From positions 1,423,902-1,487,901 of the forward strand of contig CP011392.1 of assembly GCA_001005265.1 (NCBI GenBank): a stretch of 64,000 bases of DNA. Reading direction: 5' to 3'. Position 1 is the stretch's first letter. Each line of letters begins with the position of its first letter. The notes under the pieces were generated by a model. That model was not told the DNA's origin and ran no database searches. It saw nothing but the letters and a program-made list of their open reading frames with translations. The position numbers and the translations under genes were made by a program. This DNA is from Dehalogenimonas sp. WBC-2 (GTDB taxonomy: Bacteria; Chloroflexota; Dehalococcoidia; Dehalococcoidales; Dehalococcoidaceae). Shown in pieces: positions 46,903 to 56,410 of the stretch.

Positions 46903-48222
46903 TTACACTTTATTTTGATCACTTGAAGAGTGAAGAGCATTACATGAAACATAGTTTGGAAAATTATTATCAATCATCTGTTCATTTAACGCACTGATAT
47001 TTCCGGTAAGAAGACCAGCAATAAATTCTCCTATTTGTTTCAGGAGAAGAAAATCGCTCGTTTGGTCAAGCGCACGAGAGGCAAAGCGGAAAGCTTGATC
47101 TAAATCCCCAACCTTTAATGATGCTTCTGCTGCCCTAAATGAAGCCTTGTCAGTTTTTATCCAATAGTTTGAAGATTGGTACAGACTTAATGCTTGCGCT
47201 GGATTTCCCGCCTCGATAGCCATCTCCATTCTGGATTCCAAGCTTGGAAGTAGCGCCGTTTCAAAAGTTTCATCCTGGATTTCGTGATTTCCGAGACATC
47301 CGCCATAGCATCGACCAGTTGTTTTATGAACGCATTGACTGCATTCTACAAAGCAACCTTCGTTTAACAGGCGATAGTCGATATTGTTTAGAAACCAATC
47401 CTTTAGTTCTCGCTCATTGTGAAAATCCAACAAATTTATCCTGCTCAGGTTAGATAGGGCGAAACATCGTAGAACTTTTAAATCTGGTGTTACATCAAGG
47501 GCGGGTTCACAAACTCCCATAACTGACGCAGTCGCAGGATGATACTGTCTCACCCATGCAAGCTGTTGTTCATTGAAAAAACAGACTGGCAGAGGGCAAT
47601 CCAATAATGCTTCAATGTTTAATCGCGCGGCTTCCTGGAGCATTATGAAACATCTATCTGCAATCAAACCGAACTGGGACGGGGAAACTACTTTAGAAGG
47701 GCAACCAAGTATTGGATTTGCAACGGTCCAACTGAAATTCGACCGGGCAAATTTATGAGCAAGATCAGGAATAAAATTAGTATCGAAATCCGGCCGCCAT
47801 ACATTAAAGCTTAGAGATACTCTAAAACCTTTCCGAATTGCTATTTCAACATTTCGTATCACCTTATTAAAGTGTTTAGGATTAAGATAGCCCTTCGGTT
47901 CATTGATATTGAAACCAATTGAGACATCTTCGGGACAAATATTGTCAAGAAGTTGTTTATTAAAGATGCCACCAGTAAGTATCCTTAACCCTATCCAAGG
48001 GCAACTTTGGCGCATCGTTTTAACTATACTACCCAGTTTGGGATGCAGAAACGGTTCACCTCCCAACAAAGAGAGGAAAGGCAATCTCGAATCATGCGCC
48101 CATTTTGAAAACCGCATGATATTTTCATCTGAAATTAGACTATGCTTGCCCTTCTGCTGTTCCGCTTTTTCAAAACAATAAGGGCATGAGTTACTACAAG
48201 CTGGAGTTAGGACTAAATTCAT
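46903..48222 (-). CDS. Radical SAM protein with SPASM-like C-terminal cysteines
   Basis: A 439-residue enzyme. The radical SAM cluster is ACSNSCPYCFEKAE near residue 9; SLLGGEPFLHPKL is the SAM-binding GGE motif. A C-terminal Cys-rich region (GVCEP, CFVECSQCVHKTTGRCYGGCLGNHE) is the SPASM pattern that holds auxiliary Fe-S clusters in peptide- or protein-modifying enzymes. The last 110 residues look like TPR-type helices (AAEASLKVGDLDQAFRFASRAL), suited to protein binding. Last gene of the rdhA-containing minus-strand cluster. Confidence 0.87.
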   Translation of the reverse strand: MNLVLTPACSNSCPYCFEKAEQQKGKHSLISDENIMRFSKWAHDSRLPFLSLLGGEPFLHPKLGSIVKTMRQSCPWIGLRILTGGIFNKQLLDNICPEDVSIGFNINEPKGYLNPKHFNKVIRNVEIAIRKGFRVSLSFNVWRPDFDTNFIPDLAHKFARSNFSWTVANPILGCPSKVVSPSQFGLIADRCFIMLQEAARLNIEALLDCPLPVCFFNEQQLAWVRQYHPATASVMGVCEPALDVTPDLKVLRCFALSNLSRINLLDFHNERELKDWFLNNIDYRLLNEGCFVECSQCVHKTTGRCYGGCLGNHEIQDETFETALLPSLESRMEMAIEAGNPAQALSLYQSSNYWIKTDKASFRAAEASLKVGDLDQAFRFASRALDQTSDFLLLKQIGEFIAGLLTGNISALNEQMIDNNFPNYVSCNALHSSSDQNKV

Positions 48223-48341
48223 TTTACTTTCACTCTGATAATTTTAACTGAATCAGGGATACAACAGCGTTTTTAAGTAAAAATATCACCAAATTTTTAA
48301 TTATATATTATCACTTTATACTCGTTATTAGTCAATATATT

Positions 48342-48869
48342 CTAAGTATCATCAATAATAGCAGAAAGCATTGGGAGTGAATTTGAAGCTGTATTTTCAA
48401 TTACTATATTACCTTCTTTTAAGCCACGGCATATCCCACTAACCTTAACAACTTGTCCCGTCATCTTGATAATGTCATCGGTAACAAATTCTAATCCTGG
48501 TGACACCATACATCTCACACAATACTTCCCCTCTGGGACACCAGCATCCAATTCAACCCAATTAGATGATCCGCTTGAGAATCCAATACCTCTGATTGTT
48601 CCCTCAATATGGACTTCTTTATTAAGATACATGCTAGCCAAGACTGGATCAAGTAAGGCGTTATATAAAACATCAATAGGGGTGGCTTTAACCCCCCCTG
48701 TGGTGGGCGGTAGTGTTTCTGAAGGTGGTAGCGTTTTCGTTACTGAAAGAGTCGTTACCGAAGTTGTATTTGCTAACGAACCGAACGCAAATACTAAGCT
48801 CAGTACCACTGCAAGTATTACTGGAGATGTGACCACCATGGCCTTTTTTAGATATTCAACGTCTTTCAT
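48342..48869 (-). CDS. Exported OB-fold protein (tRNA_anti-like)
   Basis: A 175-residue protein with an N-terminal hydrophobic segment (residues 10-33, signal or anchor), a Thr/Pro-rich linker, then an OB-fold-like domain: KEVHIEGTIRGIGF, WVELDAG, CVRCMVSP and DIIKMTGQVVKVSGICRGL. The layout matches small OB-fold tRNA_anti-like proteins of unknown role. It contains three Cys in the outer domain. It lies just downstream of rdhA, where rdhB would normally be, but has only one membrane segment and no RdhB pattern. Confidence 0.65.
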   Translation of the reverse strand: MKDVEYLKKAMVVTSPVILAVVLSLVFAFGSLANTTSVTTLSVTKTLPPSETLPPTTGGVKATPIDVLYNALLDPVLASMYLNKEVHIEGTIRGIGFSSGSSNWVELDAGVPEGKYCVRCMVSPGLEFVTDDIIKMTGQVVKVSGICRGLKEGNIVIENTASNSLPMLSAIIDDT

Positions 48870-48918
48870 CTAACAATATTCCTTCAATGATCATCAAGTG
48901 ACTTATTACCATACACCC

Positions 48919-48950
48919 CCGGGAGGGGGCAGTTGACCACCCCCTCCCGG
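48919..48950 (-). terminator. Strong hairpin after rdhA
   Basis: CCGGGAGGGGG and CCCCCTCCCGG form an 11-bp stem with a ten-base loop, lying between the rdhA stop and the OB-fold gene. A T tract is weak, so it may act as a partial terminator or as an mRNA 3'-end stabiliser that sets the rdhA level above its downstream genes. Confidence 0.65.
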
Positions 48951-49013
48951 TATCGGCAAACTACAATAGACGTTTACTTCATACGGTCTCTAGTGTTGCA
49001 GAGATCATCGAAA

Positions 49014-50498
49014 TTAAGTCTCCGCTATGTGCTGACCGTACTTAGCATGCTCCTCATTCCACCATTCGGCAGCCCTTGGATTAAAGGTAGCGTCGCTATC
49101 AGGATTATGCTCCGAGTTAATACCCGCAGTTCCGTAGCCAAACAAACCATCCATATTGGTGAAGAAACTATTAAAGACGGGTGAAACGGAGGCTATTTGT
49201 TTTACCATCACATGGATTGATGCCGAATTATGTTTGGTAAAAACGCAGTTTGCTGTGCATAAGAGACAGAAATTCAGTAGGAAGAACCCGTCCCTGCATA
49301 GATTCATTTTGTTCTGGAACGCCTTTTTGCCAGGATTCGACCAAGGTCCGTAAACATCCCAGCTCCTGGGTTCACCTACAATCGCTCCACCCGGGCAGGC
49401 ATCACTGCAGCGATGACAACTGTCGCAAAATCGCATAGCACCAGAATCAATTGGTTTATCAGGAGCGAGAGGGAGATCTGTTAGTATCATTCCAGAACTG
49501 CCAGCACTTCCCATACCGTATACAGGATTAAGTGAGTTTCCCGGGCGTCCCAGTTCGTTCATACCAGCCAAAACACCTACAGCCGGAGCGGGAGCCATGC
49601 CACCACCGCCGTGAAGCGACTGATAATACAAGGCTGCAATGAAACGATGAGCGGAACTGGCTTCCATCTGCATGTTCCTATTCCCCAGATAGTGTGCCGA
49701 TTTTACCATGCCACCAGGTGCCCTGGACCACATATCATTGCTCTCTTGGTAGAAACCCAGCGAATAGTACATCTGGACGTTGCCGGGGATTACTTTTTTC
49801 CCGGCCGCATTTGTATAACCTTCGTCGACATTTTCAACAACGCAGTTGTTGGAATACAAAAGTTGTTTTTGGCGCTGGTCAAACAGAGTACTGCCAATAA
49901 CATCAGACCCAAAAAATCTCCGTGCTACTTTCAGCATACGCGCATTCTCTTCAGGTGTACCCTGATATTTTGGTATACCTTCGGTTTGAATTTCTGCGGG
50001 GCCTCGTGGTACTTCGCCTACGTGTGGGTTTCTGATTGCTCCTTGTGTAGGAAAATAAGCCGCCTTATCCGCTACCCAAGGAAACGAAGCCCCAGGGGGG
50101 GCTGTAACAGACTGCCTCAGCGCCCAGTCTTTAACCGTATAGCCAGGTCTGTTTTCTTTCATCCAATTAATCTTATTGTCCCTTGCTCGTGCGCTGAGCT
50201 CTTCCCAATAACCCGGTTTGAAACCAAATTCTGTACCGTGATATTTTTCAGGGACACTTGTATCGTTACAGGCTATTCTTGAATCGCAAGGCTTTAGGGT
50301 ATTCCAATCAATTTCTACTGTGGGTTCGTCAACCTCCTTGACCCACCAAGGATTCTTGAATATGGCTGCATCATCTGACTTCATCTCGTCAAGATCATGG
50401 TAGACAGGTAAGGTCAAAGCAGCGGCACCTGTGGCTACCATCCCTAGAGATTTCATGAAAGTTCGTCTACTTACTGTGCTGTGAAATAACTCAGACAT
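49014..50498 (-). CDS. Reductive dehalogenase catalytic subunit (RdhA), orphan
   Basis: A 494-residue corrinoid/Fe-S enzyme that would remove halogen from organohalides as terminal electron acceptors, outside the cytoplasmic membrane. The N-terminus has the Tat signal SRRTFMKSLGMVATGAAALTL. Two Fe-S motifs are near the C-terminus: CDSCHRCSDACPGG and CLLCTANCVF, the second with an unusual Val where Pro is expected. HGGGGMAPAPAVGVLAGMNELGR is the corrinoid-binding region. No rdhB anchor gene is adjacent. Substrate cannot be predicted. ATG 50498 follows AAAGGAGAA. Confidence 0.95.
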   Translation of the reverse strand: MSELFHSTVSRRTFMKSLGMVATGAAALTLPVYHDLDEMKSDDAAIFKNPWWVKEVDEPTVEIDWNTLKPCDSRIACNDTSVPEKYHGTEFGFKPGYWEELSARARDNKINWMKENRPGYTVKDWALRQSVTAPPGASFPWVADKAAYFPTQGAIRNPHVGEVPRGPAEIQTEGIPKYQGTPEENARMLKVARRFFGSDVIGSTLFDQRQKQLLYSNNCVVENVDEGYTNAAGKKVIPGNVQMYYSLGFYQESNDMWSRAPGGMVKSAHYLGNRNMQMEASSAHRFIAALYYQSLHGGGGMAPAPAVGVLAGMNELGRPGNSLNPVYGMGSAGSSGMILTDLPLAPDKPIDSGAMRFCDSCHRCSDACPGGAIVGEPRSWDVYGPWSNPGKKAFQNKMNLCRDGFFLLNFCLLCTANCVFTKHNSASIHVMVKQIASVSPVFNSFFTNMDGLFGYGTAGINSEHNPDSDATFNPRAAEWWNEEHAKYGQHIAET

Positions 50499-50583
50499 TC
50501 TTATTCTCCTTTCGATTCTTTTCAGTCTTTCCTGAACGCCACTCAGTCTCTCCTGAGAGTCATTCTTGTGGCCCTTACCTCCT

Positions 50584-51441
50584 CTATACTGCTATTAGTT
50601 CTCTCCTGTCTTTTGGTAAATTCAACAGAGAAACCGAACTTCTAGTCTGATAAGGTTGTATTTCACCGAAACCAAATGGAAAAAGGCTTTTTACCTCCCA
50701 TTCCAGCTTCTCTTCGCCCGAAAAATGATAAACAGTTGTCAGATGGTGTCTGGCTGCCTCTGCCGCCTGCTCCATATCTGAAGGAGTAGGCCGCCGCCAT
50801 GGGTTGTCACCGGATTTGAAATAGGGCAGGATCATAAAAGGAATATTTCTGTCTATGCCGGCCACGAACTTAGCGATACGTTCAATCTCATCTATGTCCA
50901 TATACTCTGGGATCAACACCGATTCTACTATGATCTTTTTGCCCATCTGGTAGGTCTTTACCAGGTTCTCAAGCACTGCTTTGTTGGATTTCCCTGTATA
51001 GTCAATATTGATGCTGTCTGTCAGTGCTTTAATGCCGAACTCCACTTTGTCCGTATGTGTTAAATCAGGCATATGATAACCATTGGTCAGCAGTACATTG
51101 TTACAGCCAAACCTTCTATGCAGAGCCACAGTAACCGCGGGATAAGCGGGATCCAGACCTGCCTCTTGGCCTTCCAATATCACCTGCTTGAGCTTAAATG
51201 GTTCCAATATCTCCATCACTTCTTCCAAAAACAGAAACTTTTCAGGTGGAGTTGCTAAGCCTGACGGGTCTTTAAGGACATTGGGTCCGTCGTGATTGAA
51301 ATCCTGCAGCATTGGGCTGTAAATCCGCCTTCGGCAGTAACAACCGCGGCACTCAATATTGCATCCCCAGAAGAAAAGGCAGACTTCATGTGTGTCCGGT
51401 GTGTAGGCAATGTGGTAAATATTGGTTGGTGTCTTAGTCAT
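50584..51441 (-). CDS. Radical SAM protein, activating-enzyme-like
   Basis: About 285 residues. The cluster motif is GCNIECRGCYC (CxxxCxxC, with a further Cys directly after), followed by KQVILEGQEAGLDP as a degenerate GGE motif and VLLTNGYHMPDL. The compact length and order resemble pyruvate-formate-lyase-activating-type enzymes, which make glycyl radicals, but no glycyl-radical partner is present. The four-Cys run CRGCYC is unusual. ATG 51441 overlaps the upstream gene's end (ATGACTAA). It directly precedes rdhA, about 85 bases upstream. Confidence 0.82.
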   Translation of the reverse strand: MTKTPTNIYHIAYTPDTHEVCLFFWGCNIECRGCYCRRRIYSPMLQDFNHDGPNVLKDPSGLATPPEKFLFLEEVMEILEPFKLKQVILEGQEAGLDPAYPAVTVALHRRFGCNNVLLTNGYHMPDLTHTDKVEFGIKALTDSINIDYTGKSNKAVLENLVKTYQMGKKIIVESVLIPEYMDIDEIERIAKFVAGIDRNIPFMILPYFKSGDNPWRRPTPSDMEQAAEAARHHLTTVYHFSGEEKLEWEVKSLFPFGFGEIQPYQTRSSVSLLNLPKDRRELIAV

Positions 51442-51751
51442 CTTCATACACCCCACATTTTTTGAACTCATTGATTATCAGTTCAGCATTATCATGAAAG
51501 GTAACAAGGGGCTGCACCGTGAATTCAGACAAGCAATACATCGGAAAGTCGATAAGGTGTTGTACCAATTCGCTGTGGGAGTCAACGTTGAAAATAATGA
51601 AACCACCACCCGCGGTGAAGCTGTAAGCGCTTTCGACAATACCCTCATTCATCTTCACCTTAATCCAATCCTGAGATCTTCGGAGGAATTCAACCTTGGT
51701 TTTATAGCCGTCTGGATAAATAGTTTGCTTACCGTTGACTAAATATTGCAT
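51434..51751 (-). CDS. Muconolactone-isomerase-like small protein
   Basis: A 105-residue protein of the dimeric alpha/beta-barrel type: KVEFLRRSQDWIKVKMNEGIVESAYSF, then GGGFIIFNVDSHSELVQHLIDFPMY and FTVQPLVTF, matching the muconolactone delta-isomerase-like family where GG-x-x-I-x-NVDS-x-E-L and P-L are conserved. In the clade its substrate is unknown; a role binding or rearranging a small aromatic is only a guess. It overlaps both neighbours by 8-13 bases, so it belongs to the same operon as the radical SAM enzymes. Confidence 0.75.
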   Translation of the reverse strand: MQYLVNGKQTIYPDGYKTKVEFLRRSQDWIKVKMNEGIVESAYSFTAGGGFIIFNVDSHSELVQHLIDFPMYCLSEFTVQPLVTFHDNAELIINEFKKCGVYEDD

Positions 51752-53181
51752 GGGTGACTCTCAAGCAACAATCGTTTGCATCGTTTATTGAACTTCACAA
51801 GTACCGTTTGTGTTTGTATCAATTTATATAATTCGTGCAAGAATTTAATAGGATTAGTAAAAATTATTAGGAAATAAGAAGGATCATGTTTAAGGGTAAA
51901 TCTGAATCGTTCAAGAGCATAAGTTTGCCTGAAATTCAAGACAGCCTCATCAATCAAATTCTGTGGTATGAGACTCAGATTTATTTGATTACGGTATAGC
52001 CCGGACATGTTATTAGTCCAATCAGAAATTGTACTAACTGGGGAAATCGTTCCTTGTTTTAAACAATAATCGTATAACGCACTCCCGGGGAAGGGCACAA
52101 ACTGATTGTACATATAATAGGGATGATCCAACCTCCTCAAAAGATCATGAGTCAAGTAAAAATCTTCGGTGGTTTCCTCTGGGAATCCATACATGAGGTA
52201 TATTGTGGTTCGTATTTTATGCTTTATTAATAACCAGAAGGTCTTTTCGACTTGCTCAATTTTTATATCTTTTTGAACAAAATCCAACATGCGCTGACTA
52301 CCTGATTCAACACCTAATCCGATTTCTATGCAGCCAGCGCGAGCCATGAGTTTGATATCATTTTCATTAATATCTGCCCTAGAATCACAATACCATTTAA
52401 TCTTAATTCTTCGGTCTATAATGGTATTGCAAAACTCCCGCAATCTTTTACGATTAAAAGTAAAATTGTCCTCGTTAAATTTAATGAATCTAGTGTTGTA
52501 TTTTTCTTGCAGGTGTTCAATCTGTGAAACAATTCTTTGAGCTGATAAATAACCTATGTAACCTTTGTTATACGACTTGTTATAGCAAAAGGTGCATCTG
52601 TGTATGCAACCTCGGCTTGTGTTTAGACCTAGAGACGTATATTTTTTTACATCTACCAAATGCCAGGCCGGGTCTGGTAATTCTTCAAGGTTCTTAATAA
52701 ACGGACGGGGTTCGTTGAAAATTAGCTTGCCGTCATGCTTAAAAACCAACCCTTTGATTTCCTCCAACTTGGGTTCCCCTTTTTCAAGGTTGTTGGCAAG
52801 TTCCAGTAAGGTATATTCACCGGCACCAACAACTACAAAGTCCACATAAGGCTCCGAAATCACCTTATCTGGAAGGACGCTCGGCAAAACGTTACCCCAG
52901 ACAATTTTGGCCTCGGGGAAAATATTTTTGAACTCTCGGGATTGAGAAATGGAACCCTCAATATTTGGGCCAGCAAGGGCTGAAAAACCAATCACATCGG
53001 GATTGAAAGAGATGAAGTCTTCTGGTTTTCTATGGTCGATAAAATTATCGAATATCTGAACCGAATGGCCATTTTTTTCCAATACCGCGGCGATACAAAA
53101 TATCCCACTCGGTACATTTGAGACCTTTGTATAGAATTCCTTGTATGCTGGAGTTGCTGAATTAACCAATAAGACTTTCAT
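51739..53181 (-). CDS. B12-binding-domain radical SAM protein
   Basis: A 480-residue enzyme. Residues 1-130 form a cobalamin-binding-type Rossmann domain (MKVLLVNSATPAY, PSGIFCIAAVLEKNGHSVQIFD, PDVIGFSALAG) without the DxHxxG His-on motif. The radical SAM core follows with TSRGCIHRCTFCYNKSY near residue 190, NFNEDNF-type FIKFNEDNF, and GLGVESGSQRMLDF. Such enzymes methylate or rearrange unactivated carbons. It begins the intact part of the rdhA cluster. Confidence 0.9.
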   Translation of the reverse strand: MKVLLVNSATPAYKEFYTKVSNVPSGIFCIAAVLEKNGHSVQIFDNFIDHRKPEDFISFNPDVIGFSALAGPNIEGSISQSREFKNIFPEAKIVWGNVLPSVLPDKVISEPYVDFVVVGAGEYTLLELANNLEKGEPKLEEIKGLVFKHDGKLIFNEPRPFIKNLEELPDPAWHLVDVKKYTSLGLNTSRGCIHRCTFCYNKSYNKGYIGYLSAQRIVSQIEHLQEKYNTRFIKFNEDNFTFNRKRLREFCNTIIDRRIKIKWYCDSRADINENDIKLMARAGCIEIGLGVESGSQRMLDFVQKDIKIEQVEKTFWLLIKHKIRTTIYLMYGFPEETTEDFYLTHDLLRRLDHPYYMYNQFVPFPGSALYDYCLKQGTISPVSTISDWTNNMSGLYRNQINLSLIPQNLIDEAVLNFRQTYALERFRFTLKHDPSYFLIIFTNPIKFLHELYKLIQTQTVLVKFNKRCKRLLLESHPCNI

Positions 53182-53234
53182 ACAGGTCTCCCATCACAAA
53201 TAATTTTGATTAACGAATAAATCTACCAAACTGC

Positions 53235-53607
53235 TTATACTTTCCTGTCTGCCTTTAAAGGACCAACAACTTTTAGAAAAAACAAACCCCACGGTGAACC
53301 CCGATTACACTCAGGGACGTCCACGGGAGGGGTTCCACAGTCTTCCAGCCACCGGTTGAGTCGCGCATCCGGGGCACCCTGATTTCCCCCACCGTAGGGT
53401 TTGTTACAACAAATAGTCTTGTTTCCGATTAAACCTTGGATAAATCCAGCTTTCTGTTCTGACTCCATTTTGGAAACATCTCAGCATTGAGTTGGCAGGT
53501 TCTATCCAGTTCTCTCTTAACAAAGGATAATCAGCACCCTCAGGATTATTAAACACCTCAAGTTTCTTCATAAACTCTTTTCGGCTCATCTGGCATGTAA
53601 TGGTCAT
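53235..53607 (-). pseudogene. Frameshifted small gene at the head of the rdhA cluster
   Basis: From ATG 53607 the frame reads TCQMSRKEFMKKLEVFNNP, LLRENWIEPANSMLRCFQ, then breaks at an AAAA run near 53.47 kb; the next frame continues MESEQKAGFIQGLIG, NKTICCNKPYGGGNQG, APDARLNRWLEDCG and WGLFFLKVVGPLKADRKV. Removing one A joins them into a protein of about 123 residues. Both halves look protein-like. The product is soluble, with five or six Cys, and I do not recognise it. It could also be two overlapping genes, which is less likely. Confidence 0.55.
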
Positions 53608-53864: not shown

Positions 53865-55631
53865 ATGGATAGTTACAGTTTACCCGTATACGACTCTACC
53901 CTCCTTGTTCTGGACTCACTCGCCTCCGGAATAGTCCTTATTGACCCAGACTCCCATCGTATTTGCTGGATAAATAAGGCGGGCTTGCAACTTATCGGCG
54001 GTTCATTAGCAGAGGTAACAGACCACCTTTGTCACGGTTTCATTTGTTCCGCTGAGAAAAATAAATGTCCGGTTCTAGATTTGGGGCAAGAAGTTGATAG
54101 ATCCGAAAGAATCCTAATCTCAATAGACGGCCGACATATTCCTATCATCAAAAGCGTGAACAGGCTTCAACTAGGTGATAAAGAGTACTTGTGTGAAGCC
54201 TTCACTGATATCAGTGAATTGAAAAAGAGCCAGGCTAACTGCTCAAAGGCTGAGTATGCCTTAGATCATGCAACTGACCTAATATGCTGGCTAAATGACA
54301 CTGGTGATATTGTTTACGTTAACAATTCAATGGTGCAACGCCTTGGCTACCAAAAACAAATACTACTCCAGATGCATATATGGGATATTTGCCCCAAATT
54401 ACCCGAAAAGCAATGGCCAATATGCCGGGACAATTTAATAAGAAACAATCGACTTCAAGGGGAGTTCACACTGCGAACATACGGCCGGCAAAATTTCAAT
54501 GTGGAAATAAGTGCCAGTCATTCTGTTTTCGATAATGAGCAATATATATGTGTCATCATTCGTGATCTTACCGAGCGCAAAATTAGTGAGCAGAAATTAT
54601 GCTCTAAACAGGCCGAACTTCAGATAATGCTTGAGCAAATGCCCTGCATGCTTTGGACGCTTGGTACCGATCTCCGGTTCACATCTTTCTCCGGAAGTGG
54701 TTTAAAGTCCGCTGGTCGAAAACCCGAGGATTTTATAGGAAAAACGATGTTTGAATATTCTTCTCAATTCGACGAAAAATCCATTCTTATAAAAGCATAT
54801 AGAAATGCCCTCAAAGGCTCACCTGCATCATATGAACAAAAAACCGTATCGAATGACAGATATCTCCTATGTCATGTTCGGCCGATGTGCGCTGATGACG
54901 AGAGTGTGATCGGAATCATTGGCGTTGGAATAGATGTCACAGAGCAAAAAGCTTGGGAGAAAAAAATCATTGATAATGAGAAAAAAATAAAACATCTTGC
55001 TCATGCCTATGTAAAGGCGCAGGAAAAAGAACGGGAATGGTTAACACTGGAAATTCACGACCGGATTATTCAGCCACTATCCAGTATGTCACATGCACTG
55101 GATGCTATTATATCCAACAAGACCGTATCAAGCGATGTGAGAAAAATCGGAAACGCTGCATTATCACAACTGATTATAGCAATCACAGAAACTCGCACTA
55201 TTATGCGTGAGCTTTATCCTGCGACCTTGACCAGATATGGTTTAATGCGCGTACTATCAACAGAAATTAATCAATTACATGACGACATGGGTTGTAAAGT
55301 CGAATTCACACACCAGTGTGATCAGGATGTACCTCATGACATTCAGACGACTTTTTATCGCGTGGCACATGAAGCTATACTCAACATTAAAAGACATTCT
55401 GAAGCTAAGAACGTTTATGTCGCCCTCATATGCGATGACAATATATTTAAAATGACGGTTAATGACGATGGAGTTGGGTTTGACTATAAGGCATTTAGCA
55501 ATAAGCATTTGCCAGGTGGTTTGGAAAGCATGAAACAACGCACGGAAATCATCGGTGGTAAATTTCGGCTTCAGAGCACAAAAAATCTAGGTACGAAAAT
55601 ATCAGTGACAATAAACTGGCAAAATACGTAG
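53865..55631 (+). CDS. Histidine kinase with three PAS domains, NarX-type core
   Basis: A 588-residue kinase with no membrane helix. PAS1 carries the cysteine pattern CHGFICSAEKNKCPV; PAS2 (about 135-245) and PAS3 (about 260-370) follow. The HisKA_3 box has REWLTLEIHDRIIQPLSSM with His398, and the HATPase has HEAILNIKRHSEAKN, NDDGVGFDYK and GGLESMKQRTEIIGGKF. A cytoplasmic, cysteine-bearing sensor fits detection of redox state or a small ligand. It is divergent from the rdhA cluster and probably controls it. GGAG precedes the ATG. Confidence 0.92.
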   Translation: MDSYSLPVYDSTLLVLDSLASGIVLIDPDSHRICWINKAGLQLIGGSLAEVTDHLCHGFICSAEKNKCPVLDLGQEVDRSERILISIDGRHIPIIKSVNRLQLGDKEYLCEAFTDISELKKSQANCSKAEYALDHATDLICWLNDTGDIVYVNNSMVQRLGYQKQILLQMHIWDICPKLPEKQWPICRDNLIRNNRLQGEFTLRTYGRQNFNVEISASHSVFDNEQYICVIIRDLTERKISEQKLCSKQAELQIMLEQMPCMLWTLGTDLRFTSFSGSGLKSAGRKPEDFIGKTMFEYSSQFDEKSILIKAYRNALKGSPASYEQKTVSNDRYLLCHVRPMCADDESVIGIIGVGIDVTEQKAWEKKIIDNEKKIKHLAHAYVKAQEKEREWLTLEIHDRIIQPLSSMSHALDAIISNKTVSSDVRKIGNAALSQLIIAITETRTIMRELYPATLTRYGLMRVLSTEINQLHDDMGCKVEFTHQCDQDVPHDIQTTFYRVAHEAILNIKRHSEAKNVYVALICDDNIFKMTVNDDGVGFDYKAFSNKHLPGGLESMKQRTEIIGGKFRLQSTKNLGTKISVTINWQNT

Positions 55632-55657: not shown

Positions 55658-56410
55658 GTGGCCATTACAAATACCACTTCAGTTAGTCCGACCACCCAAT
55701 GGCAACCGGAAATAGCAGGAGAGTCGACAAAACAAACCCGTGTTTTCCTAGTGGATGACCACGAAGTGGTTCGTCGGGGTTTGCGTATGATTTTCGTTAA
55801 TGATGGTGATATCGTAATCGTTGGCGAGGCAGACGGCAAGGATCATGATGCCTTATTGAAGAACATCGAAACAACCCAACCGGATATAGTGTTAATGGAT
55901 ATCCGGCTCGATGGTATGGATGGTTTCGAGTTAAGTACCCAAATTAAAATATCTCGTCCGAAGACCAAGGTTATTATGTTGACCGGATATGAAAGTGAAC
56001 TCTATGCCTCAGAAGCTTTGTTCCACCGGGTTAATGGCTTTATCACCAAGGAGAGTTCCAAGGATTTCATATGTACAGCCATAAGAATGGTGGCGCTGGG
56101 TGGAAGTGTGTGGCAGGGCGACATCCTTTTTCATGCCATAAAGAGTTGGGCACACACTAACCCCTCTTCAACTCCAAATACGCCCACAAATAACTTCAAA
56201 CCTATCAACAACTTAAAAGATCGCCTTACATCGCGTGAGATCCAAGTCCTTATTGCCCTAGGCCAGGGGCTTAGTAACAAGGATATAAGCAAACGATTCA
56301 ATCTTCCTGAATTAATCGTTAAAAAAACTGTCCACAACATTTTTTGCAAAATAGGCGTATCCAACAGAACCCAGGCGGCGCTGTTCGCACAGAAATCAGG
56401 GTTGGAATAA
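55658..56410 (+). CDS. NarL/LuxR-type response regulator
   Basis: A 250-residue regulator with a full receiver (VFLVDDHEVVRRGL, phospho-acceptor Asp81 in IVLMDIRLDGMDG, KVIMLTGY, and GFITKESS) and a C-terminal LuxR HTH (LTSREIQVLIALGQGLSNKDISKRF). It follows the kinase gene by 27 bases and is its cognate partner. Expected to act on the divergent control region. GTG 55658 is preceded by AAGGAG. Confidence 0.92.
   Translation: MAITNTTSVSPTTQWQPEIAGESTKQTRVFLVDDHEVVRRGLRMIFVNDGDIVIVGEADGKDHDALLKNIETTQPDIVLMDIRLDGMDGFELSTQIKISRPKTKVIMLTGYESELYASEALFHRVNGFITKESSKDFICTAIRMVALGGSVWQGDILFHAIKSWAHTNPSSTPNTPTNNFKPINNLKDRLTSREIQVLIALGQGLSNKDISKRFNLPELIVKKTVHNIFCKIGVSNRTQAALFAQKSGLE

Follow-up and report, generated by a model that had tools for sequence, protein, structure and literature searches.

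Reductive dehalogenases serve in the cleanup of chlorinated pollutants and rely on scavenged corrinoids, and each genome holds dozens of genes for their catalytic subunit, RdhA, of which almost none has a known function. PMC13390414 describes Dehalogenimonas as dependent on corrinoid salvage, with expanded cobamide salvage and ribonucleotide reductase (RNR) genes and with rdhAB operons accompanied by two-component regulators (tdrAB, cerAB and dcpAB). An RNR gene is drawn there beside rdh clusters, and the passages in question make no tie to radical S-adenosylmethionine (SAM) genes or to an RNA. In this study, we analyzed a window of 64,000 nucleotides (nt) (G000:C1:1423902-1487901) from the closed genome of Dehalogenimonas sp. 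WBC-2 (1,725,728 bases; 21 reductive dehalogenase family matches genome-wide), in which one rdhA is embedded in an operon with three radical SAM genes. The locus bears on how the right corrinoid form is routed to the right RdhA, and the chances stand about even, in our judgment, that this operon is a corrinoid-conditioning module dedicated to a single divergent RdhA.

The operon comprises six open reading frames (ORFs) on the minus strand (window 46903-53181), encoding a B12-binding radical SAM protein, a muconolactone isomerase (MIase)-like protein, a pyruvate formate-lyase (PFL)-activase-like radical SAM protein (hereafter ACT), RdhA, an OB-fold-like protein and a MoaA/SPASM-like radical SAM protein. 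ORF and profile matches confirmed the gene set, strand, short spacing and families named in the original prediction, which had been made from the DNA alone. By ORF coordinates, the B12-radical SAM and MIase-like genes overlap by 13 nt and the MIase-like and ACT genes by up to 38 nt, while gaps of 85, 144 and 119 nt separate ACT from RdhA, RdhA from the OB-fold gene and the latter from the third radical SAM gene, respectively. Because all ORFs overlap or lie less than 150 nt apart, a single transcript for the six genes is likely. No rdhB was found within the operon, as had been predicted, yet this is normal in Dehalogenimonas and not peculiar to the locus, since the genus holds few such genes: 3-6 rdhB per genome against many rdhA (PMC13390414), and three cognate rdhA/rdhB pairs in strain IP3-3 (PMC4918011).

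The window locus is no oddity, as the genus holds many modules related to it. Loci were fetched from related genomes via ACT, B12-radical SAM, third radical SAM and RdhA proteins, and the co-occurrence check proposed in the original prediction found ACT, B12-radical SAM and RdhA together in many of them; because of this recurrence, the grouping exceeds chance. No paper describing the association was found in the open-access library that was searched, and its novelty is provisional because much of the subscription literature lay outside the search.

The evidence that carries the corrinoid reading comes chiefly from ACT. Its profile shows a distant likeness to PFL-activating enzyme, which is also its nearest solved structure, with scores far under the family cut-offs, and its CX3CX2C radical SAM motif is invariant among 23 members. 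A role as glycyl-radical activase was rejected: searches with positive controls found no glycyl-radical enzyme (PF01228) in any of 13 genomes of the order, although these genomes carry up to nine ACT copies each. The neighbors of ACT point elsewhere. In two genomes from other Chloroflexota classes, ACT is flanked by BtuF and BtuC and a cobalamin riboswitch stands upstream, and in two other families of the same class (G035 and G138) it adjoins BtuF, BtuC and BtuD behind such a riboswitch. The single-copy ACT of Dehalococcoides heads an operon with CbiB and CobA, and a second ACT in the window's own genome (L093) heads a BtuF-BtuC-BtuD-CbiZ-CbiB-aminotransferase series. Across Dehalococcoidaceae, the neighbors are cbiZ, cbiB, cobA, btuFCD, nrdJ and rdhA. 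Of 72 ACT genes, 66 belong to a same-strand run that includes RdhA, NrdJ, Btu, CbiZ, CbiE-like or B12-radical SAM genes, and three further CbiB/CobA cases bring to 69 of 72 those placed with corrinoid salvage genes or corrinoid-dependent enzymes. Because corrinoid genes were not used to fetch the loci, this count is not circular for the salvage genes, although it is no substitute for a whole-genome null. A scan of the named genomes in the whole collection for ACT gave one match, 25% identical.

The BtuF/BtuC and CbiB/CobA settings, the count of 69 and the absence of glycyl-radical enzymes from the order together support a corrinoid role for ACT, and from this gene context we infer that this radical SAM enzyme belongs to corrinoid uptake and salvage, with a putative action on the corrinoid itself. 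The original prediction had offered remodeling of a corrinoid or another cofactor as one option; for ACT this gains support from the btuF/btuC, cbiZ, cbiB and cobA surroundings, and the B12-radical SAM family is likewise linked to cbiZ. The MIase-like protein and ACT share one open frame in three genomes, so the two probably work together. Some loci carry three to six ACT genes in tandem, with CbiZ, a CbiE-like methylase and a Dph6-like ATP-pyrophosphatase/ligase set among them and an NrdJ-like gene at the end (L035:4776-9568, L058:5830-12281 and L077:6365-12000).

The B12-radical SAM protein matches PF02310, at its N-terminus, and PF04055 above the cut-offs, as a member of this superfamily should. 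Its curated matches are led by BchE, with HpnJ and BzaD lower and all far under cut-off, and its nearest solved structures are AprD4 and OxsB. The fetched loci hold 54 such genes, of which 30 share a run with ACT, 24 with RdhA and 14 with CbiZ. Synthesis of an anaerobic lower ligand by the bza route was rejected for the window's genome, in which the B12-radical SAM protein scores 105 bits with the BzaD profile against a cut-off of 450 and only one ThiC, with no second ThiC-like synthase, was found. In two Dehalogenimonas relatives, a pair of B12-radical SAM genes stands ahead of two additional ThiC-like genes (G124:C6:79375-84844 and G200:C1:408810-414413); these clusters are probably anaerobic benzimidazole (bza) operons, and their B12-radical SAM genes are only distantly similar to the window family. 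Away from rdhA, B12-radical SAM pairs are followed by CbiZ and then by a protein of about 490 amino acids, DUF2779 where tested (L092, L105, L052, L061, L037 and L044).

RdhA itself matches TIGR02486 with 214 bits against a cut-off of 160, and carries the twin-arginine translocation (Tat) motif SRRTFMK, a first Fe-S motif CDSCHRCSDACP and a second of the C-x10-C-x2-C-x3-C type, as expected of the family. Its active site departs from that of PceA: the columns of Tyr246, Asn272 and Arg305 hold Asn, Gly and Ala, in a low-identity alignment in which a Tyr three residues away might conceivably substitute. The surrounding clade has Asn at the 246 column and Thr or Gly at the 305 column, and one of the three PceA residues is missing from many further RdhAs of Dehalogenimonas as well; Tyr is absent at the 246 column in 36 of 93 locus RdhAs. 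With the catalytic Tyr and Arg of PceA missing, the substrate of the window RdhA may be unusual, and the RdhA group lacking both residues may perform chemistry other than known dehalogenation. In a tree of the 93 RdhAs, the window protein groups with those of G189, G178 and G124, which also come from ACT-B12 operons (Shimodaira-Hasegawa-like approximate likelihood-ratio test support, 98). RdhAs with ACT or B12-radical SAM neighbors are nevertheless spread across the tree (21 changes), and this scatter favors function over shared descent as the reason for the association. A link between loss of the catalytic residues and the radical SAM genes was rejected, because the raw association of the loss of both Tyr and Arg with ACT (Fisher p 0.003) finds no support once kinship is respected.

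Between an upstream remnant and the first gene of the operon, a 125-nt segment (53281-53405) shares 75-80% identity with parts of other Dehalogenimonas loci. A covariance model, R1, built from 14 copies, recovered 27 copies above 60 bits in six of eight Dehalogenimonas genomes, five of them in the window's genome, as well as weak relatives of 33-45 bits in Dehalogenimonas, Dehalococcoides and one further genome; among 240 genomes of the class, none was found beyond the Dehalococcoidaceae family and one relative. Over 24 distinct sequences, 95% of cells in the fold pair, and 16 of 36 pairs are changed on both sides, giving 46 double-change cells against 11.7 in shuffles. None of 500 shuffles reached the covariation values, and slid versions scored far lower. 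The window copy forms its outer helix with AACAAAC/GTTTGTT where most copies have GGCAAGC/GCTTGCC, so that compensatory changes, those of the window copy included, show the fold to be kept.

Strong copies lie sense-oriented ahead of genes, mostly ahead of an NrdJ-like gene followed by rdhA, or of ACT; the window copy precedes the B12-radical SAM gene. A kept fold together with a constant place and orientation is what a cis-regulatory RNA should display, and both the covariation and the arrangement of the strong copies fit that description. We accordingly class the segment as a leader RNA, which is predicted to control the operon and offers a testable regulator of corrinoid-enzyme operons. No Rfam match was obtained in the window, nor for an isolated R1 copy even at E 10, and assignment to the cobalamin riboswitch RF00174 or another Rfam family was therefore rejected. 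A mobile repeat is unlikely given the sense-oriented placement of strong copies directly upstream of genes, and a terminator was discounted since a T-run follows only the window copy.

At L147 and L148, the order is RNA, NrdJ-like gene, RdhA and RdhB; from this arrangement and the gene numbers in PMC13390414, these are probably the tdrA and cerA operons. In many operons, the tdrA and cerA ones probably among them, multicopy NrdJ-like proteins (about 590 amino acids against a 759-position profile) are encoded downstream of the leader RNA and ahead of rdhA (L147:8117-9910, L148:4492-6285, L142, L143, L144, L094 and L141). Each Dehalococcoides genome has one weak R1 relative, and G098 has three; those at L154:8774-8896, L151:4185-4305, L152:4587-4707 and L153:7796-7911 score 33-44 bits and adjoin unrelated genes. 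We are unsure whether the Dehalococcoides and G098 copies are kin to the leader RNA, because they adjoin unrelated genes.

If the operon does condition a corrinoid for its RdhA, the divergent two-component system and the structured leader RNA would control its expression, and ACT would act on salvaged corrinoid in the cytoplasm before insertion into apo-RdhA, with the MIase-like protein as its partner or as a corrinoid-holding domain. The B12-radical SAM protein could make a second change to the corrinoid, or could itself be one more corrinoid-dependent enzyme drawing on the same supply. Export of the folded holo-RdhA by Tat would follow, and the OB-fold protein, itself exported, might, more speculatively, stabilize or anchor it in place of RdhB. 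Several points weigh against this scheme. The window operon contains no btu, cbi or cob genes, and CobA, CbiZ and CbiB are already present in the salvage operons, so that no missing step calls for ACT. The B12-radical SAM gene may lie near corrinoid genes merely because its product uses cobalamin, and the roles proposed for the OB-fold and third radical SAM proteins are drawn from context alone. Because RdhA, NrdJ and B12-radical SAM proteins are all corrinoid users, context cannot split an enzyme that changes corrinoids from one that reactivates corrinoid enzymes.

That last point bears on an account, unlikely but the one we would take most seriously among the alternatives, in which ACT activates or repairs corrinoid-dependent enzymes (RdhA, NrdJ-like and B12-radical SAM proteins), for example by adenosylating or re-reducing the bound cobalt with SAM, leaving the corrinoid unchanged. 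Outside salvage operons, the neighbors of ACT are indeed three unrelated kinds of corrinoid-dependent enzyme, and ACT copies are many where rdhA is abundant; however, in other classes ACT belongs to an uptake operon, flanked there by BtuF and BtuC and accompanied by no client enzyme, and the CobA adenosyltransferase is already present within the same operons. B12-radical SAM and SPASM-like enzymes are frequent protein or peptide modifiers, and the original prediction had accordingly raised post-translational modification of RdhA or the OB-fold protein, such as methylation, a cross-link or epimerization. The enzymes adjoin rdhA in many loci, and conserved C-terminal cysteines, a trait of such maturases, are present in the MoaA-like protein. 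This proposal is weakened, and now appears rather improbable, since all three radical SAM families also occur in operons apart from rdhA in relatives, the very arrangement that had been named as telling against it, while the adjoining RdhAs are scattered over the tree and the surroundings of the third radical SAM gene yielded no small ORF resembling a precursor.

We give still less credence to the view that the genes make a non-corrinoid small molecule (an anaerobic lower ligand, a lipid or a tetrapyrrole product) with rdhA as a passenger. The ranking of BchE, then HpnJ and BzaD, as best curated matches would suit it, as would the pathway-like blocks of ACT with three or four B12-radical SAM genes that lack rdhA (L041, L099 and L110). 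Every one of those profile matches is far under its family cut-off, however, a second ThiC-like synthase is required for lower-ligand synthesis and the genome has a single ThiC, the likely true bza operons of the two relatives use other B12-radical SAM genes, and the repeated pairing with RdhA argues against a passenger. It is very improbable that the operon is a non-functional, decaying island whose genes were brought together by horizontal transfer. The operon and the neighboring kinase/regulator pair occupy a segment at about 46-57 kb of the window with a guanine-plus-cytosine (GC) content of 39-47%, against 50-56% in the flanks, and this difference suggests an island; an rdhA remnant stands in front, and the catalytic residues of PceA are missing from the window RdhA. 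Against decay, all six ORFs are intact, the radical SAM cysteines are conserved and the leader fold is kept by compensatory changes in the window copy too.

The remaining features of the locus are collected with the main ones in Table 1. The third radical SAM protein was originally described as SPASM-type; Pfam does not back that label, as no match to its SPASM domain was obtained, although the C-terminal cysteine cluster is invariant among 12 members. Its genes neighbor RdhA, B12-radical SAM, ACT or an ABC-type gene, and no convincing small precursor-like ORF lies around the window copy. In three genomes, the gene accompanies one for a 650-amino-acid protein matching an ABC ATPase model (L062:5019-8548, L066:7728-11024 and L070:7131-10427). 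All four relatives found for the OB-fold protein lie in runs with ACT. Upstream of the leader, the ORF at about 53404-53607, which the original prediction had counted as a frameshifted Cys-rich gene, gave no family match in profile searches and was rejected as a gene: its nucleotide and protein similarities are weak and fall on the first codons of rdhA in L106, L064, L050 and L101. With these matches and its Tat-like motif, it is probably a remnant of an rdhA 5' end. At L042 and L059, kinase/regulator pairs are likewise divergent from ACT-B12-rdhA operons.

Table 1 Features of the operon and its surroundings (window positions)
Feature	Position	Strand	Remarks
MoaA-like radical SAM protein	46903..48222	-	Radical_SAM; conserved C-terminal cysteines
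OB-fold-like protein (tRNA_anti-like), predicted exported or anchored	48342..48869	-	23.4 against a cut-off of 23.5
RdhA	49014..50498	-	TIGR02486; Tat and both Fe-S motifs; lacks PceA-aligned Tyr246, Asn272, Arg305
ACT, corrinoid-linked family	50584..51471	-	Radical_SAM, weakly PFLA/YjjW-like; CX3CX2C intact
MIase/DUF3303-like small protein	51434..51751	-	Slightly under both cut-offs; one frame with ACT in three relatives
B12-binding radical SAM protein	51739..53181	-	PF02310 and PF04055; N-terminal B12 domain; nearest curated profile BchE, far under cut-off
Structured 5' leader RNA, model R1	53281..53405	-	101 bits; branched fold, about 100 nt upstream of first ORF
Probable rdhA 5' remnant	53404..53607	-	Tat-like MSRKEFMKKLE; weak similarity to rdhA starts; no family match
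PAS histidine kinase, divergent	53865..55631	+	ORF; context
Response regulator, kinase partner	55658..56410	+	ORF; context

Taken jointly, these features would allow a bolder proposal, which we regard as doubtful and offer tentatively: that the leader is a new riboswitch class, perhaps for a corrinoid form, set over Dehalogenimonas corrinoid-enzyme operons (NrdJ-like, ACT, B12-radical SAM, RdhA and probably tdrA/cerA), and that ACT is a new corrinoid-altering radical SAM enzyme serving a divergent RdhA with new chemistry. Independently of that proposal, a radical SAM family linked to B12 uptake in several bacterial classes and multiplied in rdhA-rich genomes provides candidate enzymes.

Compared with known systems, the locus shares features with each of its closest counterparts. 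With the tdrAB, cerAB and dcpAB operons (PMC13390414) it has in common the Tat and Fe-S motifs of RdhA and a regulator pair, and it differs in having no rdhB, changed catalytic residues and radical SAM genes inside the operon. Like RF00174, the leader is a multi-helix RNA ahead of B12-related genes, but it lacks an Rfam match, and the window's genome has a separate, true RF00174 in its salvage region. ACT shares the CX3CX2C core and nearest profiles and structure with PFL-activating enzyme and YjjW, whereas its scores fall far under their cut-offs and the genome has no glycyl-radical enzyme. The B12-radical SAM protein belongs to the same superfamily as BzaD of the bza operons, which also lie near corrinoid genes, although it scores under the BzaD cut-off in a genome with no second ThiC-like synthase. 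Corrinoid salvage operons (btuFCD, cbiZ, cbiB, cobA and RF00174) contain ACT homologs, both in the window's genome (L093) and in other classes (L085, L182 and L183); in contrast, the window operon dispenses with the classical genes, carries another leader RNA and is centered on RdhA.

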